From an uncultured bacterium (GTDB lineage Bacteria > Edwardsbacteria > AC1 > EtOH8), in contig CALMGM010000001.1 of NCBI GenBank assembly GCA_937863685.1, positions 1-64,000 of the forward strand: a DNA stretch of 64,000 bases, in the 5' to 3' direction. The notes under the pieces were generated by a model, which searched no databases, was not told where the DNA came from, and saw only the letters and a program-made list of their open reading frames with translations. This document shows, piece after piece, positions 17,156 through 24,088 of this stretch (position 1 is the stretch's first letter; each line of letters begins with the position of its first letter). A program made the translations under genes and the position numbers.

Positions 17156-17854
17156 CTATATTCCCCTTAAAATCACTCTTTCCACCAACCCCTCCGCCCT
17201 CTTTCTCATTTCGTCCAGATATTCCTCATTATATGGAGGCATATTGCGCAGTTCCTCATTTTCTGCATTTATCTGCACAAACTGCTGTAAAACCCACTTT
17301 TTTGCCCCTTTTATCTCCCGGGCTATGTTTTCCATCGAATCCAGGTCGTGATATTGCGGTACTATGGTGGTGCGGAACTCGTAATCCAATCCGGAGGACA
17401 TGATCAAAGCAATGCTTTCCCTGATATTATCCTTATTGACGGGAACACCGCAGGCCAGGTCATAGGATCCGTCGAAAGAGGCCTTGATGTCCATGGCGAT
17501 GAATTCCACCAATCCGGCCTCGATTATCCTCTTTAATCGGTCCGGAGCACTGCCGTTGGTGTCCAACTTGACCGGCAGGCCCATATCCTTCAGTTTCGTC
17601 AGCAGGGGCACCAGGTCCTTATGGATGGTCGGCTCGCCTCCTGTGACCACCACCCCGTCTATCCAGCCCTTCTTGGCCCTTAAAAACGTTTCTATGCGCT
17701 TCCAGGGGACGTCGGCGATCTGCTCCGGGTGCTTCACCAATATATGGTTGTGGCAGAACGGACAGCGGAAGTTGCATCCGGGAAGAAAAACGACTGAGAC
17801 GATCTTTCCGTCCCAGTCGATCAGCGATGTTTCGATGAAGCCTTTTATTTCCAT
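17156..17854 (-). CDS. nrdG: Anaerobic ribonucleotide reductase activating protein (radical SAM)
   Basis: A 232-residue radical SAM protein with the cluster motif C-N-F-R-C-P-F-C (Cys27, Cys31, Cys34) and a G-G-E-P-T SAM-binding segment. It belongs to the longer NrdG-like group often annotated as anaerobic RNR activating protein; the opening I-E-T-S-L-I-D-W-D-G-K is characteristic. It would use SAM and an electron to place the glycyl radical on the reductase. Here the likely target is the separate 95-residue glycyl-radical protein at 18432-18719, two genes upstream on the same strand. Confidence 0.87.
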   Translation of the reverse strand: MEIKGFIETSLIDWDGKIVSVVFLPGCNFRCPFCHNHILVKHPEQIADVPWKRIETFLRAKKGWIDGVVVTGGEPTIHKDLVPLLTKLKDMGLPVKLDTNGSAPDRLKRIIEAGLVEFIAMDIKASFDGSYDLACGVPVNKDNIRESIALIMSSGLDYEFRTTIVPQYHDLDSMENIAREIKGAKKWVLQQFVQINAENEELRNMPPYNEEYLDEMRKRAEGLVERVILRGI

Positions 17855-18014: not shown

Positions 18015-18290
18015 TTATACCGCCGGATCCAGGTACGGCTTTAATTCCTTGGACAGCGGAGGCCGCTTCACCCAGCGGTCCATCTCGTCCTCGTTGTTCA
18101 GCAAGACCACGGTGGGGATGTCCGACACCTCGTAGAAGGCGCCCTCGGCCAGGCCGTCCACCGTGTCCATGTCGAAGTAGGTGAGCGGCACCTTGCCCTG
18201 AAACTCCCACTTGTCCAGGAAATAGTTGATCTTCTCCATGGCCTGCTTGCAGACCTGGCAGGTGGGCCGGCCGAAAACTTTCAATTCCAT
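18015..18290 (-). CDS. Glutaredoxin/thioredoxin-fold protein next to class III RNR genes
   Basis: A 91-residue redoxin with the active-site motif P-T-C-Q-V-C (Cys11, Cys14) and the cis-proline segment D-I-P-T-V-V-L-L. It resembles NrdH-type and glutaredoxin-like thiol donors. Class III reductases of the NrdD2 type take electrons from a thioredoxin/glutaredoxin system instead of formate, so this protein may be the reductant for NrdD; that assignment rests on context. The ATG at 18290 is preferred because it begins right at the fold; an ATG at 18326 would add 12 residues. Confidence 0.75.
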   Translation of the reverse strand: MELKVFGRPTCQVCKQAMEKINYFLDKWEFQGKVPLTYFDMDTVDGLAEGAFYEVSDIPTVVLLNNEDEMDRWVKRPPLSKELKPYLDPAV

Positions 18291-18333
18291 AGTATATGCC
18301 TTATCCTTATATGTTTGATTTATCATGCCCCAC

Positions 18334-18431: not shown

Positions 18432-18719
18432 CTAGGCTATCTGGGAGTGGTAGCGGTCCTTGAGCTCGCCCAGCTTGCCCTTGTTCCAGCCCTCGACGAT
18501 GGTGAAATATCCGGTGACCCGGGTGATGTGGTTGACGTCCCGGCCGCCCACGGTCTGGCTCTTGATGGTGGCCCAATCGTTCTTGGCGATGCCTTCGGCG
18601 CTGCAGCGCACCTTGACCCCGTGCTTCTTGTTGCGGATGATGACATCCCCGCCCTCTTCGGTGAAGTCGTAGATATGTTTCTCGGCGCTCAGTTTGTCTT
18701 TCAGTTCCTGCAGTTCCAT
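18432..18719 (-). CDS. Stand-alone glycyl-radical domain of class III ribonucleotide reductase
   Basis: A 95-residue protein whose last ~32 residues match the extreme C-terminus of anaerobic NrdD: I-T-R-V-T-G-Y-F followed by W-N-K-G-K-x-x-E-L-K-D-R-Y. In E. coli NrdD the equivalent R-V-C-G-Y-L glycine (Gly681) carries the radical; here it is Gly70. The first ~63 residues (charged, with one Cys) are not recognised and may dock on NrdD. The large NrdD at 21178-23607 ends just before this motif, so the radical site appears to be supplied in trans. The ATG at 18719 has GGAGG five bases upstream; an ATG at 18731 overlaps that site. Confidence 0.8.
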   Translation of the reverse strand: MELQELKDKLSAEKHIYDFTEEGGDVIIRNKKHGVKVRCSAEGIAKNDWATIKSQTVGGRDVNHITRVTGYFTIVEGWNKGKLGELKDRYHSQIA

Positions 18720-18962
18720 GATGACCTCCATTATATATTATTTTGATTTTTATCTGTTGGGACACGACCTGCCGTGTCCTTACAAAGTGCAACAGCTTAA
18801 TTACACACCATAGATGTCTATTTGCATACTACGCATGCTAGATCCTTTACCCCGGGAGCTTATTTGTTCACGTTATTGATTGATTATTTATTTATAAAGA
18901 GCTATTTTAAAAAATGCAAAATATATTTCTATCTACACACACTACGCATTAAACTACATTTG

Positions 18963-19730
18963 CTATTTTTCTTTTCCTTTTTGCCCCTCTTCACTTTTGT
19001 CGTCTTGCACGATATTTTGCATTCCTGACAGATATCTTGCCACAAGTGCATTATTGCCACCATATAACGTTTGATATGATAAGCCTTGAGGTATTTGATT
19101 ATAATAAGAACCGCTAGGCATATTCACTATTGGCATATCTACTTGTGCATCAACAAGATAATTTCTTCTTTCTTGGTTGCGCACAATTTCTAATATTTCT
19201 TGTAAAATATCTCTATCAGCTCTCTCTGTTTTCTGTTCTTTACTTTCAATTTTCGTAGCTTGTTCAAGCGCTTGTTCAAGTTTCGGCCAATATGTATTAA
19301 AAACGTCTTCTAGTAATGGCTCGGCAAGTGCGTTTTCACCGCATTTTTGGACAACGGAATTTATAGTATAAATAAGTTTCTTTATTTCATCTTTATTAAC
19401 TGTAGTGTGCTGGAACTGTGCTAAGGGCTGTTCAATATCCGTGGGGTTAAGACCTATTAATAGTGTGCAAACATATGCATCCTTTGTTTTAGACAATGCT
19501 CCAGCTTCATACAGAATCCATTTCGCATCAAGGTTTTCTTTTGTTAGGCATATAATACCTACTTTTGATTTTTCCAATCTATCAGCTATTTCAGGACCCC
19601 ACCTTAAACCCTTTGAAATATCCGTTGATATCCATGGCTCTACAGCTTGGATAACTTGCTTCAACCAATTTTCTAAAGCTTCCGCAATATATTTGCTTTG
19701 ATCCCCAGACCAACTTATAAAAACAAGCAT
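18963..19730 (-). CDS. TIR-domain protein
   Basis: A 255-residue protein with an N-terminal TIR domain (about 1-135): it begins M-L-V-F-I-S-W-S, and the W-x-x-x-E motif is W-I-L-Y-E (Trp71, Glu75), the Glu being the catalytic position of TIR NADases. A coiled-coil-like stretch (about 160-200, rich in Glu/Lys) and a low-complexity Gln/Tyr/Asn tail follow; no membrane helix. Bacterial TIR proteins often act in antiviral defence by degrading NAD+ or making signalling nucleotides; no partner gene is recognisable here. The gene is AT-rich compared with both neighbours, suggesting insertion into the nrd region. AAAGG lies six bases before the ATG. Confidence 0.82.
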   Translation of the reverse strand: MLVFISWSGDQSKYIAEALENWLKQVIQAVEPWISTDISKGLRWGPEIADRLEKSKVGIICLTKENLDAKWILYEAGALSKTKDAYVCTLLIGLNPTDIEQPLAQFQHTTVNKDEIKKLIYTINSVVQKCGENALAEPLLEDVFNTYWPKLEQALEQATKIESKEQKTERADRDILQEILEIVRNQERRNYLVDAQVDMPIVNMPSGSYYNQIPQGLSYQTLYGGNNALVARYLSGMQNIVQDDKSEEGQKGKEK

Positions 19731-19845
19731 GTGATACCTTTCACTATTATTGTGGCAACTACAACAGCATAAGTTATTTTAAAAATCTAAATGCTGGCTT
19801 GCCAACTGCCTTTAAAATTTGCGTTCTATATTAAAGCACCTCGTA

Positions 19846-21078
19846 TCAGACTTTCCCCGAAAACTGCTTGTCCCAATCTATCCTGGCCGTGAACTGCATG
19901 ACCACGAACAGCGTGGCGATACAGCAAATGGTGATGGCCAGCCCGGTGTAGCCCTCCCAGAAGAAGGCGTAGGAAAAGAACACCAGGTACACCAGCTGGG
20001 CCAGGGCCGTCTCCACCAGGGCAAAGCGGGCCCCGGCCACGATCCGCATGTAGGACACCGCCAGGAACACCGACACCGCCGCGCTGATGAAGAACGCCAG
20101 GTAGATGTCGGCGTGATCCGCCAGGTAGGCCATCAGCAGGTGAAAGGCGAAGAACGACGCGGCCAGGAAAAAGTAATGCATGGGGTGCAGTTTTATGCCG
20201 CGCAGGGCGGTGATGATGAACACCAGAAAGAAGAACAGGAACAATGACACCGGGGCGAAGAAGCTGATCTTGCTGACGAACGGCCCGGGGTTTATCTTCT
20301 TGGGCATCTCCATGCCGATCTGGATCCCGGAGATCAGGTTGCTGTACTGCCAGACCAGCTCCCATCCCTTTCCCTTTTTGGTCTTGGCGGTGGGCGAGAT
20401 GGCGTTCTCCGGAAAATCTATCCGCCCGAAATCGGTGGTCATGGCCAGCCGAAAGTTGCGGATCTGCGAGATATTATCCCCGAAGACGTACCACCACTGG
20501 TCCAGCCCCTGGGAGCGGTAGGCCACCCGCACCTGGGCAGTCTGGCCGGGCTCGAGCTTCACCCATTTCCAGATCTTGCCGTCGGTGGGCACCAGCTCCT
20601 TCTCCGGCACGCCGTTGACCGAGATGGCGAAATCGTCGTAGATGCCGTCCCGGGAGGGGAAGGAATACTGAAAGCAGACCTGACGGGCATCATGGGTGCT
20701 GTTGACCAGGCCGTAGGTGCCGTCGAAATCCACCTGGTAGGTGGAATACCACAGTAGGCCCTTTTTGCGGTGGGTCAGTTTCAGGTCGGCCCTGATGTCG
20801 CTGGATTCCAGGTTCAGGTAGTAATCGGACAGGCTGGTCCTGGTCTCGGTGACGGTCTTGCCCCCCTCGGTGGTTTTCACCACCTTCTGCTCCTGCTTGA
20901 CCTGGTAGAACACCAGCGGCGCGCTCTGGCGCTGGGGGGTGCCCCACAGCTGGCCCACCGCCCGTTTGAGCTTGTGGTCCTGGGAGTTGGTGCGGTCCAC
21001 CGTGACCCCGCCCAGTATCACCCAGGCCATGGCGGTGCAGAAGAACACGAAGACGATGGCGGCTATCTTTTTGGCCAT
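19846..21078 (-). CDS. CreD-like inner-membrane protein
   Basis: A 410-residue membrane protein with one N-terminal helix, a large extracytoplasmic domain (about 30-270) and a C-terminal block of five to six helices. The C-terminal signature L-H-P-M-H-Y-F-F-L-A-A-S-F-F-A-F-H-L-L and Q-F-T-A-R-I-D-W identify the CreD family (E. coli inner-membrane protein CreD), whose biochemical role is unclear but which is tied to envelope stress and beta-lactam response. GAGGTG precedes the ATG. It lies 99 bp downstream of nrdD on the same strand; a functional link to nucleotide reduction is not evident. Confidence 0.82.
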   Translation of the reverse strand: MAKKIAAIVFVFFCTAMAWVILGGVTVDRTNSQDHKLKRAVGQLWGTPQRQSAPLVFYQVKQEQKVVKTTEGGKTVTETRTSLSDYYLNLESSDIRADLKLTHRKKGLLWYSTYQVDFDGTYGLVNSTHDARQVCFQYSFPSRDGIYDDFAISVNGVPEKELVPTDGKIWKWVKLEPGQTAQVRVAYRSQGLDQWWYVFGDNISQIRNFRLAMTTDFGRIDFPENAISPTAKTKKGKGWELVWQYSNLISGIQIGMEMPKKINPGPFVSKISFFAPVSLFLFFFLVFIITALRGIKLHPMHYFFLAASFFAFHLLMAYLADHADIYLAFFISAAVSVFLAVSYMRIVAGARFALVETALAQLVYLVFFSYAFFWEGYTGLAITICCIATLFVVMQFTARIDWDKQFSGKV

Positions 21079-21177
21079 GATCGCACCTCGGAATGAATTT
21101 TGAATATTGAATGCAGAATATTGAACTGACCTTGCCTGCTTCTGAATTCTGTCTTCAATATTCTATATTCTTTAGGT

Positions 21178-23607
21178 CTATTTGATCCTCTCTATCCCGC
21201 TGACCCTCTTCCCGCTGCAGTGCGGGCACTCTTCCATCAGGCCCCGGTAGACCTTGCTGCAGACGTTGCAGGTGGTGAACTCCGGCGAGAAGGCGATCTG
21301 GGCGTTGCGGGTATGCCGGAAGGTCTTGGTGACGAAATTGGCGATGGACTCCGGAGACGGGTGGGAATCGGCGATCCAGATGTGGGTCAGGGCCCCGGCC
21401 TCGATCATGTCGTGGAACTTGCCCTCCTGCTTGACCCGGTCGATGGGATTGACCGGATGGGCCACGTTCAGGTAGGTGGAATTGGTGTAATAGACCGAGT
21501 TGTCCTTGAGGTTGCCCTTGACCACTTTCTCGGCCTCCTTGGGGAAGTGCTCCAGGTCCAGCTTGGCGAAGCGGAAGGCGGTGCTTTCGGCCGGGGTCTG
21601 CTCCAGCACGAACTTCATGTTGTATTCCTTGGCCAGCTCCTTGGTCTTGAGGTGCAGGTAGGCAATGATCTTCAGGCCGAACTTGAAGGCCTCGGTGGAT
21701 TGGTGCAGTTCCTGCCCGGTGTGGATCTGGACCATTTCGTTGAGGCCCAGCATGCCGATCAGGAACGACACCCGGGGCAGCCGCAGGTAGCTCTCGCCGT
21801 CCTTCTCCATGGCCAGCAGGGCCAGCGGCCCCTGCTCTTTTAGGGCCATCAGCTTTTCGATGAATTTTCTTTTCTGGATGTGGCCCTTGGCGGAGATGTG
21901 CAGGAAGTCATCAATCTTTTTATACAGGGCATTGGTGTCGCCCTTGGCCAAGTAGGCGATGCGCGGCAGGTTCAGGGTGATGTTCTGCAGGGCCGAGTAG
22001 CGCATCTTCCAGGGGAAGTGGGCGTCGTTCAGGTCGGACTCCTCCAGCTTGAAGGCCAGCCGGCAGCACTCGGAGATCTTGGCGGTCTCGCCCCGGTCGA
22101 ACACGAAATAGGTGTTGCCCTTCTCGGCCGCCACCTGGGAGATATGGTTGAGAAAATCCTGGTGGCCGGGGGTCAGGTAGAATTTCTCGGTGATGTGCAC
22201 CTGCGGCTTGGGAAAGAAGAAGGGGCGCCCGGTGCCGTCCCCGCCCTTGTAGACGTCGAACAGGGCCCAGGCAAAACGCTGGGCTTCCTTTAGATAGTCG
22301 CCATATTTCTTGCCGGTATATTCTCCTCCCGGGCCGATGGCCGGAACGTTCTCAAAATGCTTGGGGGTCTCCCAGTAGATGTTCAGGTCGGAGAAGATGG
22401 CCTGGCCGCCCCGGGCCACCGACTGCTGGCTGTATTCGAAGATCATCATCTGGGCCAGCTGCTGCATATCGCGGTCGGACATGCCCACCAGGTACGGCGC
22501 AAAGAAGACGTTGACGGCATCCCAGCCGATGGCCCCGGCAAAGTGCCCCTGCAGGGCGGCCGAGAATTTCACCATGTGGGCCAGCAAGGTGTCGGCATGC
22601 CTGGCCGGCTTGGCGATGGATAACGCGTTGGGCAAAGACAGCCCGAATTTTTTGACATATTCCAGGCTCTGGCCGGAACAATAGGGGCGATTGATGAAGC
22701 CCAGGTCGTGCAGGTGAATGTCGCCCCGGGAGTGGGCGTCGGCCACCTCCTGGGAGAAGACCTTGGCCAATGCGTACTGCTTGTTGATGGTCTCGGCCAG
22801 CGACATGTTGGTGGCCTCGGGATTGTGGGGAATATTGGCATTCTCCCGGTTGCGGTCGGTCAGGATCTTCTCCACGTCGAACAGGGGAAGCCCCAGGCGG
22901 GAGTGCTTCTTGCGGGCCTCCTCCAGGCCGTGTTCCACCAGCTTGGCGTCAACCAATTCGCGGACCAGGGACGAGGTCAGGCGCTTGACCTTGGCGCTGA
23001 TGATCTGGTCCTCCACTTCCCGGGCCACCTTGTGGGCGATATCCTCGGCCACCCCGGCCTCCTTCTTTAGGGCGGCGATGATCCGGTCCCGGTCCCACTG
23101 GACTATGTTGTCGTCCGACACCCGGACGAACAGCGCCAGGTCGGTGGCATCCTGCTCCCTGCCGGCCTCTGCAGGATCGGGCTTGGCAACGATCTTCTGC
23201 TGGCGGATCTTGGAGCGTTGGTCGCGGTAAAGAATGTAGGCCTTGGCGGTCTTGGCATGGCCGCGTTCGATCAAGACTTTTTCCACGGCATCCTGGACCT
23301 GTTCCACGTTGGGCAGATGATCGCCCTTGGAGGAATACAAAAAGAGCACCACCTCGTCGGCCAGGTTCTCGGAGACGCTGCTGTCCGAGCCGCCCACCGC
23401 CTGGGCGGCCTTGAAGATGGCTTCGGTGATCTTGCGCTTGTCGAAGTTGACGATGTTGCCGTTGCGTTTCTGGACCAGATGAAACATCTTGTTGGCCAAA
23501 GAGCTGTGCAGGTCCTTGATCTTCTCTCCGGCAAATAAAAAGCGGGGAGGCTCCTGGGTGTCGGGGGTGGGCGGGCTGGCTAGTAGCTCACGGTTCTTAT
23601 CTGGCAT
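21178..23607 (-). CDS. nrdD: Class III ribonucleoside-triphosphate reductase, lacking its own glycyl-radical loop
   Basis: An 809-residue anaerobic reductase making deoxynucleotides from NTPs. Two ATP-cone regulatory domains (about 40-140 and 155-250) precede the ten-stranded barrel. Likely catalytic cysteines are in P-Y-C-S-G-Q-S-L and S-E-C-C-R-L. The C-terminus has a zinc ribbon, C-N-V-C (780, 783) and C-P-H-C (794, 797), then ends S-G-I-E-R-I-K-stop. Relatives continue here with R-x-T/C-G-Y and ~30 more residues carrying the radical glycine; no such sequence follows the stop in any frame I checked. The missing part matches the protein at 18432-18719. A GAGGGA site overlaps the nrdR stop seven bases upstream, so it is coupled to nrdR. 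Confidence 0.92.
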   Translation of the reverse strand: MPDKNRELLASPPTPDTQEPPRFLFAGEKIKDLHSSLANKMFHLVQKRNGNIVNFDKRKITEAIFKAAQAVGGSDSSVSENLADEVVLFLYSSKGDHLPNVEQVQDAVEKVLIERGHAKTAKAYILYRDQRSKIRQQKIVAKPDPAEAGREQDATDLALFVRVSDDNIVQWDRDRIIAALKKEAGVAEDIAHKVAREVEDQIISAKVKRLTSSLVRELVDAKLVEHGLEEARKKHSRLGLPLFDVEKILTDRNRENANIPHNPEATNMSLAETINKQYALAKVFSQEVADAHSRGDIHLHDLGFINRPYCSGQSLEYVKKFGLSLPNALSIAKPARHADTLLAHMVKFSAALQGHFAGAIGWDAVNVFFAPYLVGMSDRDMQQLAQMMIFEYSQQSVARGGQAIFSDLNIYWETPKHFENVPAIGPGGEYTGKKYGDYLKEAQRFAWALFDVYKGGDGTGRPFFFPKPQVHITEKFYLTPGHQDFLNHISQVAAEKGNTYFVFDRGETAKISECCRLAFKLEESDLNDAHFPWKMRYSALQNITLNLPRIAYLAKGDTNALYKKIDDFLHISAKGHIQKRKFIEKLMALKEQGPLALLAMEKDGESYLRLPRVSFLIGMLGLNEMVQIHTGQELHQSTEAFKFGLKIIAYLHLKTKELAKEYNMKFVLEQTPAESTAFRFAKLDLEHFPKEAEKVVKGNLKDNSVYYTNSTYLNVAHPVNPIDRVKQEGKFHDMIEAGALTHIWIADSHPSPESIANFVTKTFRHTRNAQIAFSPEFTTCNVCSKVYRGLMEECPHCSGKRVSGIERIK

Positions 23608-23614
23608 GTTTCCC

Positions 23615-24088
23615 TCACTTTTTTATGTTTTTCTGCTGGCTTTTCTCGGCGAATGATTTGGCGGCATCGGCGAATTCGGACACCTCGCGGAAGGAACGGT
23701 ACACCGAGGCAAAACGCACGTAGGCCACCCCGTCCAGCTCCTGGAGATGCTTCATCACATGTTCCCCGATGATATCGGCCGGCACCTCGTTGTGGCCCCC
23801 AGACTGGAGCTCGTTCTCGATGGCTTCCACCATCCTCTCCAGGGCATCGATGCTGATGGGCCTCTTCTCCACCGCCCGGCGGACACCGGAAAGCAGCTTC
23901 TGGCGGTCGAAAGCCTCCCGCCGGCCGTCCTTCTTGATGACCATCAGGGCTGATTCTATGTACTCGTAAGTGGTATAACGGCGATGGCATTGCAGGCATT
24001 CCCGCCGGCGGCGTATGGCCTGGCCATCCTTACATAAGCGGGAGTCGATCACCTTGTCCTTGGGGAAAGAACAGGCTGGACATTTCAT
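23615..24088 (-). CDS. nrdR: Transcriptional repressor NrdR
   Basis: A 157-residue NrdR: an N-terminal zinc ribbon (M-K-C-P-A-C and C-L-Q-C-H-R-R-Y-T-T-Y-E) and an ATP-cone domain (about 50-140, with V-I-K-K-D-G-R-R-E-A-F-D). It senses ATP/dATP and represses ribonucleotide reductase genes by binding paired NrdR boxes. It is the first gene of the nrdR-nrdD unit, and two box-like sites lie in its own promoter, consistent with autoregulation. Confidence 0.95.
   Translation of the reverse strand: MKCPACSFPKDKVIDSRLCKDGQAIRRRRECLQCHRRYTTYEYIESALMVIKKDGRREAFDRQKLLSGVRRAVEKRPISIDALERMVEAIENELQSGGHNEVPADIIGEHVMKHLQELDGVAYVRFASVYRSFREVSEFADAAKSFAEKSQQKNIKK

Follow-up and report, generated by a model that had tools for sequence, protein, structure and literature searches.

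Positions 1 to 64,000 of contig CALMGM010000001.1 from an uncultured bacterium (GTDB lineage Bacteria; Edwardsbacteria; AC1; EtOH8), a stretch of 64,000 nucleotides called here the window, contain the gene nrdD for the large chain of a class III ribonucleotide reductase (RNR) and, 2.4 kb away with other genes between, a small gene encoding a 95-residue protein, each gene with its own start and stop (Table 1). The sequence-only reading of this locus had described an 809-residue NrdD with two ATP-cones and a zinc ribbon and without the radical glycine, and had assigned the missing NrdD tail to the 95-residue protein. Both descriptions were confirmed by profile search: NrdD matched Pfam NRDD at 435.6 bits over profile positions 1 to 539 of 562, also exceeding the cut-off for TIGR02487, and the small open reading frame (ORF; 18432-18731, minus strand) matched NRDD positions 530-560 with a score of 27.4 bits, just above the cut-off of 26.2. 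Jointly the two proteins make up one NRDD domain, with a stretch of about 10 residues at the joint found in both chains. The zinc ribbon lies at the C-terminus of NrdD and is followed by the final residues ...CPHCSGKRVSGIERIK and the stop codon. In every fused relative that could be measured (more than 40 NrdD sequences), the spacing from the last zinc-ribbon cysteine to the radical glycine is exactly 13 residues; the window NrdD has 12 residues past this cysteine and thus ends one residue ahead of the glycine position, and in an alignment to Prevotella copri NrdD (8p23) it reaches the residue two before the glycine. The missing segment, R-V-T-G-Y-F...W-N-K-G-K, is encoded by the small gene, its Gly70 aligning with the radical glycine of P. 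copri NrdD (Gly711; chain numbering +4 in 8p23), which is also spanned by the profile of the small family in the same comparison. A glycine in such a motif is radicalised by a radical S-adenosylmethionine (SAM) activase and must reach the active-site cysteine. The cognate activase gene, nrdG2, is present in the same cluster as nrdD, and Cys310, Cys514/515 (the CCR pair) and Glu674 are retained in the window NrdD as in fused relatives; the radical glycine itself is absent from the NrdD chain and is carried by the small protein.

The small gene likely starts at the ATG at 18719, which is preceded by a Shine-Dalgarno sequence (GGAGG) and gives 95 residues, an alternative upstream ATG giving 99. 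Because the gene is syntenic in the window's family and its ratio of nonsynonymous to synonymous substitution rates is about 0.09-0.58 there, it is not a chance ORF. Its glycyl segment is of the NrdD type, with NRDD as the sole Pfam match and no match to the Gly_radical model of the pyruvate formate-lyase (PFL) type. Two alignments of the small-protein family, A1 with 11 sequences and A2 with 49, both showed a conserved N-terminal module followed by a segment close to HITR[VI][TV]GY[FY]..W-N-K-[GS]-K-x-G-E-L-x-D-R. Residues 1-60 were predicted by AlphaFold2 with A2 to fold as alpha-beta-beta-beta-alpha-alpha, with the block means of the predicted local distance difference test (pLDDT) mostly above 90; the model from a single sequence was poor. 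When the fold of the small protein was compared with the PDB and viral models, nothing matched at E<=0.001 and only weak HicA-like alpha-beta-beta-beta-alpha matches appeared. The small protein belongs to an undescribed family, composed of a module of about 60 residues without a known fold relative and an NrdD-type glycyl-radical segment.

Table 1. Genes and sites of the class III RNR locus in the window.
Feature	Position	Strand	Evidence or description
nrdG2, radical-SAM activase	17156..17854	-	NCBIfam TIGR02495, 195.7 bits (cut-off 131)
CxxC redoxin, possible NrdD reductant	18015..18326	-	weak thioredoxin/glutaredoxin matches; syntenic in f1 genomes
Putative small glycyl-radical-domain subunit, 95 aa: N-terminal module, then ..NHITRVTGYFTIVEGWNKGKLGELKDRYHSQIA	18432..18719	-	NRDD positions 530-560, family alignments, AlphaFold2 model
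Putative radical glycine codon, Gly70 of 95	18510..18512	-	GGA within cgg gtc acc gga tat
nrdD, class III RNR large chain minus radical glycine	21178..23607	-	809 aa; two ATP-cones, barrel, zinc ribbon; end ..GIERIK
nrdR, RNR repressor, neighbour	23615..24088	-	TIGR00244, 193 bits

A second complete nrdD elsewhere in the genome, which would have supplied nrdG2 with another partner, was looked for and none was found: in the window genome (97.9% complete, 14 contigs) NRDD pieces are limited to nrdD and the small gene. Nor was a class I/II catalytic domain (PF02867) or a monomeric class II RNR (TIGR02505) detected there by searches that recovered their positive controls. All family genomes with nrdD (G000, G001, G003, G004, G006-G009, the G007 NrdD being located at a contig edge) have a tail-less NrdD together with the small gene, and the two others, G002 of the same genus and G005 of the same family, have neither gene and gave no PF02867 or TIGR02505 match.

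Across genome contigs, 80 named loci comprised 55 standalone small proteins and 25 fused NrdD tails, the standalone forms occurring in many candidate bacterial phyla, with lineages including Eisenbacteria, Planctomycetota, Elusimicrobia, Omnitrophota, Saganbacteria, Thermoplasmata and Nanohaloarchaea. Fifty standalone-bearing genomes, selected through the small protein and with tail states read by the author, were scored as NrdD without glycine (22), intact NrdD (20) or undetermined (8; fragments or no NrdD found). In an unbiased sample, whose genomes were picked by kinship and NrdD independently of the small gene, the small gene was present in 12/12 tail-less-NrdD genomes of the clade and in 5 of about 30 genomes whose NrdD is fused (Fisher p 6e-7, uncorrected for relatedness). 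The sequence-only reading had asked whether the small proteins accompany truncated NrdD exclusively: in the unbiased sample a tail-less NrdD of the clade was always paired, and about half of the scored genomes hold an intact NrdD. In these related genomes the small protein looks like a true spare part, the same situation as that of the PFL spare part GrcA/YfiD.

A clade tree of 74 NrdDs, built with the tail excluded by a quick method with SH-aLRT support only, places nine changes of tail state, at least seven of them on well-supported branches, and indicates that the NrdD tail was lost at least about seven times in the clade. NrdDs of the window's family and of nanohaloarchaea end at 12 residues past the last zinc-ribbon cysteine, one before the glycine; most tail-less Eisenbacteria chains end at 13-16 residues, and planctomycete chains keep about 40 residues without the Gly-Tyr loop. 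Loss occurred several times at the point where oxygen cleaves such enzymes. One Eisenbacteria clade contains every stage: fused NrdD with the small protein (G078, G400), a tail with glycine changed to aspartate with the small protein (G395), and tail-less NrdD with the small protein (G219, G348 and others). In G395, the NrdD (L355) has a full-length tail in which RVSDY, with codon GAC, replaces the radical glycine motif, and the separate small protein (L191 3402-3683) retains RVTGY. The small gene lies on a different contig from nrdD in G219 and G348. Real decay of an NrdD is seen in a degenerate paralog in G107 (L077 2330-4198), which lacks CCR motif, zinc ribbon and tail and has nrdR and a class II RNR in its neighbourhood. 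As a separate observation, two Eisenbacteria-type genomes (L134/L135) have, upstream of their unlinked small gene, a short ORF that carries a CIGCH motif (DUF1858-like by eye).

A broad sample yielded about three dozen more genomes with a tail-less NrdD of other clades (L038-L070, L074-L076), mostly with a tail gene of 45-80 residues directly downstream and without the N-terminal module, marked by ..CEVYSRVVGYLRPxxQWNxGK.. or RIRRITGYLVGTVDRFNNAK. On the class III RNR tree overall, the split or fused state changes about 12 times with a few labels uncertain: those of L013 and L015 may be wrong since their profile matches cross a stop, and the L100 match extends to profile position 556, yet inspection showed no glycine loop. 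A plasmid search with the module-less type of tail gene gave no match. Given these changes and the splits of other clades, detachment of the glycyl segment is a recurrent theme, within which the family with the N-terminal module stands out.

The comparative evidence strongly favours a two-chain class III RNR in which the radical would reside on the small protein, docking into NrdD in trans. This agrees with the sequence-only reading and is supported by the complementary NRDD pieces, the kept catalytic residues, the status of the enzyme as the sole detected RNR and the 12/12 co-occurrence. We infer radical installation, docking and catalysis as follows. NrdG2 would install a glycyl radical on Gly70, and the R-V-T-G-Y loop of the small protein would enter the tail-less NrdD beside the active-site cysteines, substituting for the missing C-terminus, with the N-terminal module probably serving as the docking or recognition part and the CxxC redoxin as a possible reductant. 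Since nrdD does not encode a radical glycine at all, the small protein would be an obligate subunit. Its origin was most likely a GrcA/YfiD-like spare part that turned into a subunit: an autonomous radical subunit would have come first, after which the NrdD tail became dispensable and may often have been lost exactly at the glycine, the site of oxygen cleavage. Several observations weigh against this reading. The same-genus genome G002 is 100% complete in 9 contigs and shows no RNR, so that an RNR could be missed; absence by a gap or through an unrecognised enzyme is possible, the genomes being mostly metagenome-assembled and that of the window not fully complete. Furthermore, the glycyl segment of the lone small protein was modelled at low confidence (pLDDT about 54-66), the C-terminal helix excepted.

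It is improbable that the small protein works with a different glycyl radical enzyme, or in repair only, and that the tail-less NrdD is a dying gene. Intact NrdD in about half of the scored genomes and the degenerate G107 gene beside a class II RNR speak for such a scenario, but the segment is NrdD-type rather than PFL-type, the catalytic residues missing from the G107 paralog are still present in the window NrdD, no RNR besides this one was found, and every tail-less NrdD of the unbiased sample was accompanied by the small gene. Introns or inteins frequently interrupt phage nrdD (PMC3653736, PMC12363816), and an intron, an intein, a frameshift or trans-splicing might here rebuild one protein from the two genes; the distance of 2.4 kb with genes between, the separate starts and stops, the added non-NrdD module and the different contigs in G219 and G348 make this very improbable. 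Although the genomes are drafts, a sequencing or assembly error hiding a normal tail, such as the frame error at 21178 that had been considered, deserves practically no credence, being refuted by same-family relatives that stop at the same place (G001, G003, G004, G006, G008, G009) and by comparable ends in unrelated lineages.

Beyond the two-chain enzyme of the window, it is somewhat probable that the small proteins form a general family of autonomous class III RNR radical subunits in bacteria, archaea and tailed phages, which would repair oxygen-cleaved intact NrdD, would have become obligate at least about seven times, and would help phages whose contigs lack NrdD to sustain host dNTP synthesis. 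Among 80 viral loci, 70 are standalone small proteins. Searched whole, 43 of 44 viral records, which may be fragments, lack NrdD, and in the remaining one a frame of 1,630 residues includes a tail-less NrdD; neighbours of the phage small genes include terminase, portal, head and replication genes. PHROGs holds no small-protein family, and 50,697 annotated phage genomes gave no match for two queries. One phage ORF of 802 residues (L269 5001-7409; IMGVR_UViG_3300017971_000443) encodes both the small glycyl-radical module (RVCGYF..WNKGK) and a family-A DNA polymerase with a 3'-5' exonuclease, joined in a single reading frame; a second module-polymerase fusion was searched for and none was found, leaving this as the sole example.

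Where contigs permit, the gene order in the window's family is nrdR-nrdD-(variable insert)-small-redoxin-nrdG2, the small gene lying 3' of nrdD with the redoxin and nrdG2 genes; elsewhere it is unlinked to nrdD. The nrdG gene proposed beside the small gene was borne out, and the proposed CxxC redoxin gene is there and syntenic, its thioredoxin/glutaredoxin matches remaining weak. The insert of the window holds a gene for a CreD-like membrane protein (19846-21078, minus strand) between nrdD and the small gene, a position kept in several relatives, and, between the creD-like and small genes, a TIR-domain protein gene (18963-19730, minus strand), A+T-rich by eye, without a counterpart at the same place in the relatives examined.

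The closest known systems are the PFL spare parts GrcA/YfiD of E. coli and Y06I of phage T4, which are likewise small and combine an extra N-terminal half with a glycyl-radical segment, so providing the glycine in trans (PMC8683613). Binding of YfiD depends on its N-terminal half, and YfiD repeats the strand that precedes the cleavage site and stays on cleaved PFL, comparable to the duplication of about 10 residues here, and a phage version, Y06I, exists there too (PMC8683613). In E. coli, PFL G734A with GrcA still produces formate (PMC12338860), a laboratory parallel to G395. The analogy with GrcA/YfiD drawn earlier is supported by the comparative evidence as regards a probable supply in trans, but rescue of a damaged enzyme is not apt for an NrdD that never has the glycine; moreover, the small protein is NrdD-type, its N-terminal half is predicted to be folded rather than disordered, and it would be obligate. 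Single-chain NrdDs (E. coli, T4, T. maritima, P. copri) share the ATP-cones where present, the barrel, zinc ribbon, cysteines and NrdG activase, whereas here the radical glycine and C-terminal tail are on another polypeptide. In the split class II RNR NrdJa/NrdJb of Pseudomonas (PMC4520616) the catalytic chain is also divided between two gene products, but in another class and at another cut point, and no protein radical is moved to the second chain; the window proteins match neither PF02867 nor TIGR02505. Phage nrdD interrupted by introns or inteins is likewise in pieces, which are rejoined or decaying (PMC3653736, PMC12363816), in contrast to two stable genes and a new domain here. A literature search, with subscription papers outside its scope and an earlier mention thus possible, returned no account of bacterial NrdD being split or of a spare part for NrdD.

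If true, this would be the first RNR, apart from class I with its beta chain, to have its protein radical on a detachable subunit, and the small proteins would be the first family of spare parts known for any glycyl radical enzyme besides PFL, whose spare parts alone have been validated, others being posed as possible (PMC8683613). With separable pieces, interactions among NrdD, NrdG and the glycyl domain would become open to study. The natural intermediates, fused NrdD with a spare part, a dead-glycine tail and no tail, would trace a route from repair protein to essential subunit, and, to go by the phage copies, viruses of anaerobes may use this route to keep up the dNTP supply of their hosts.
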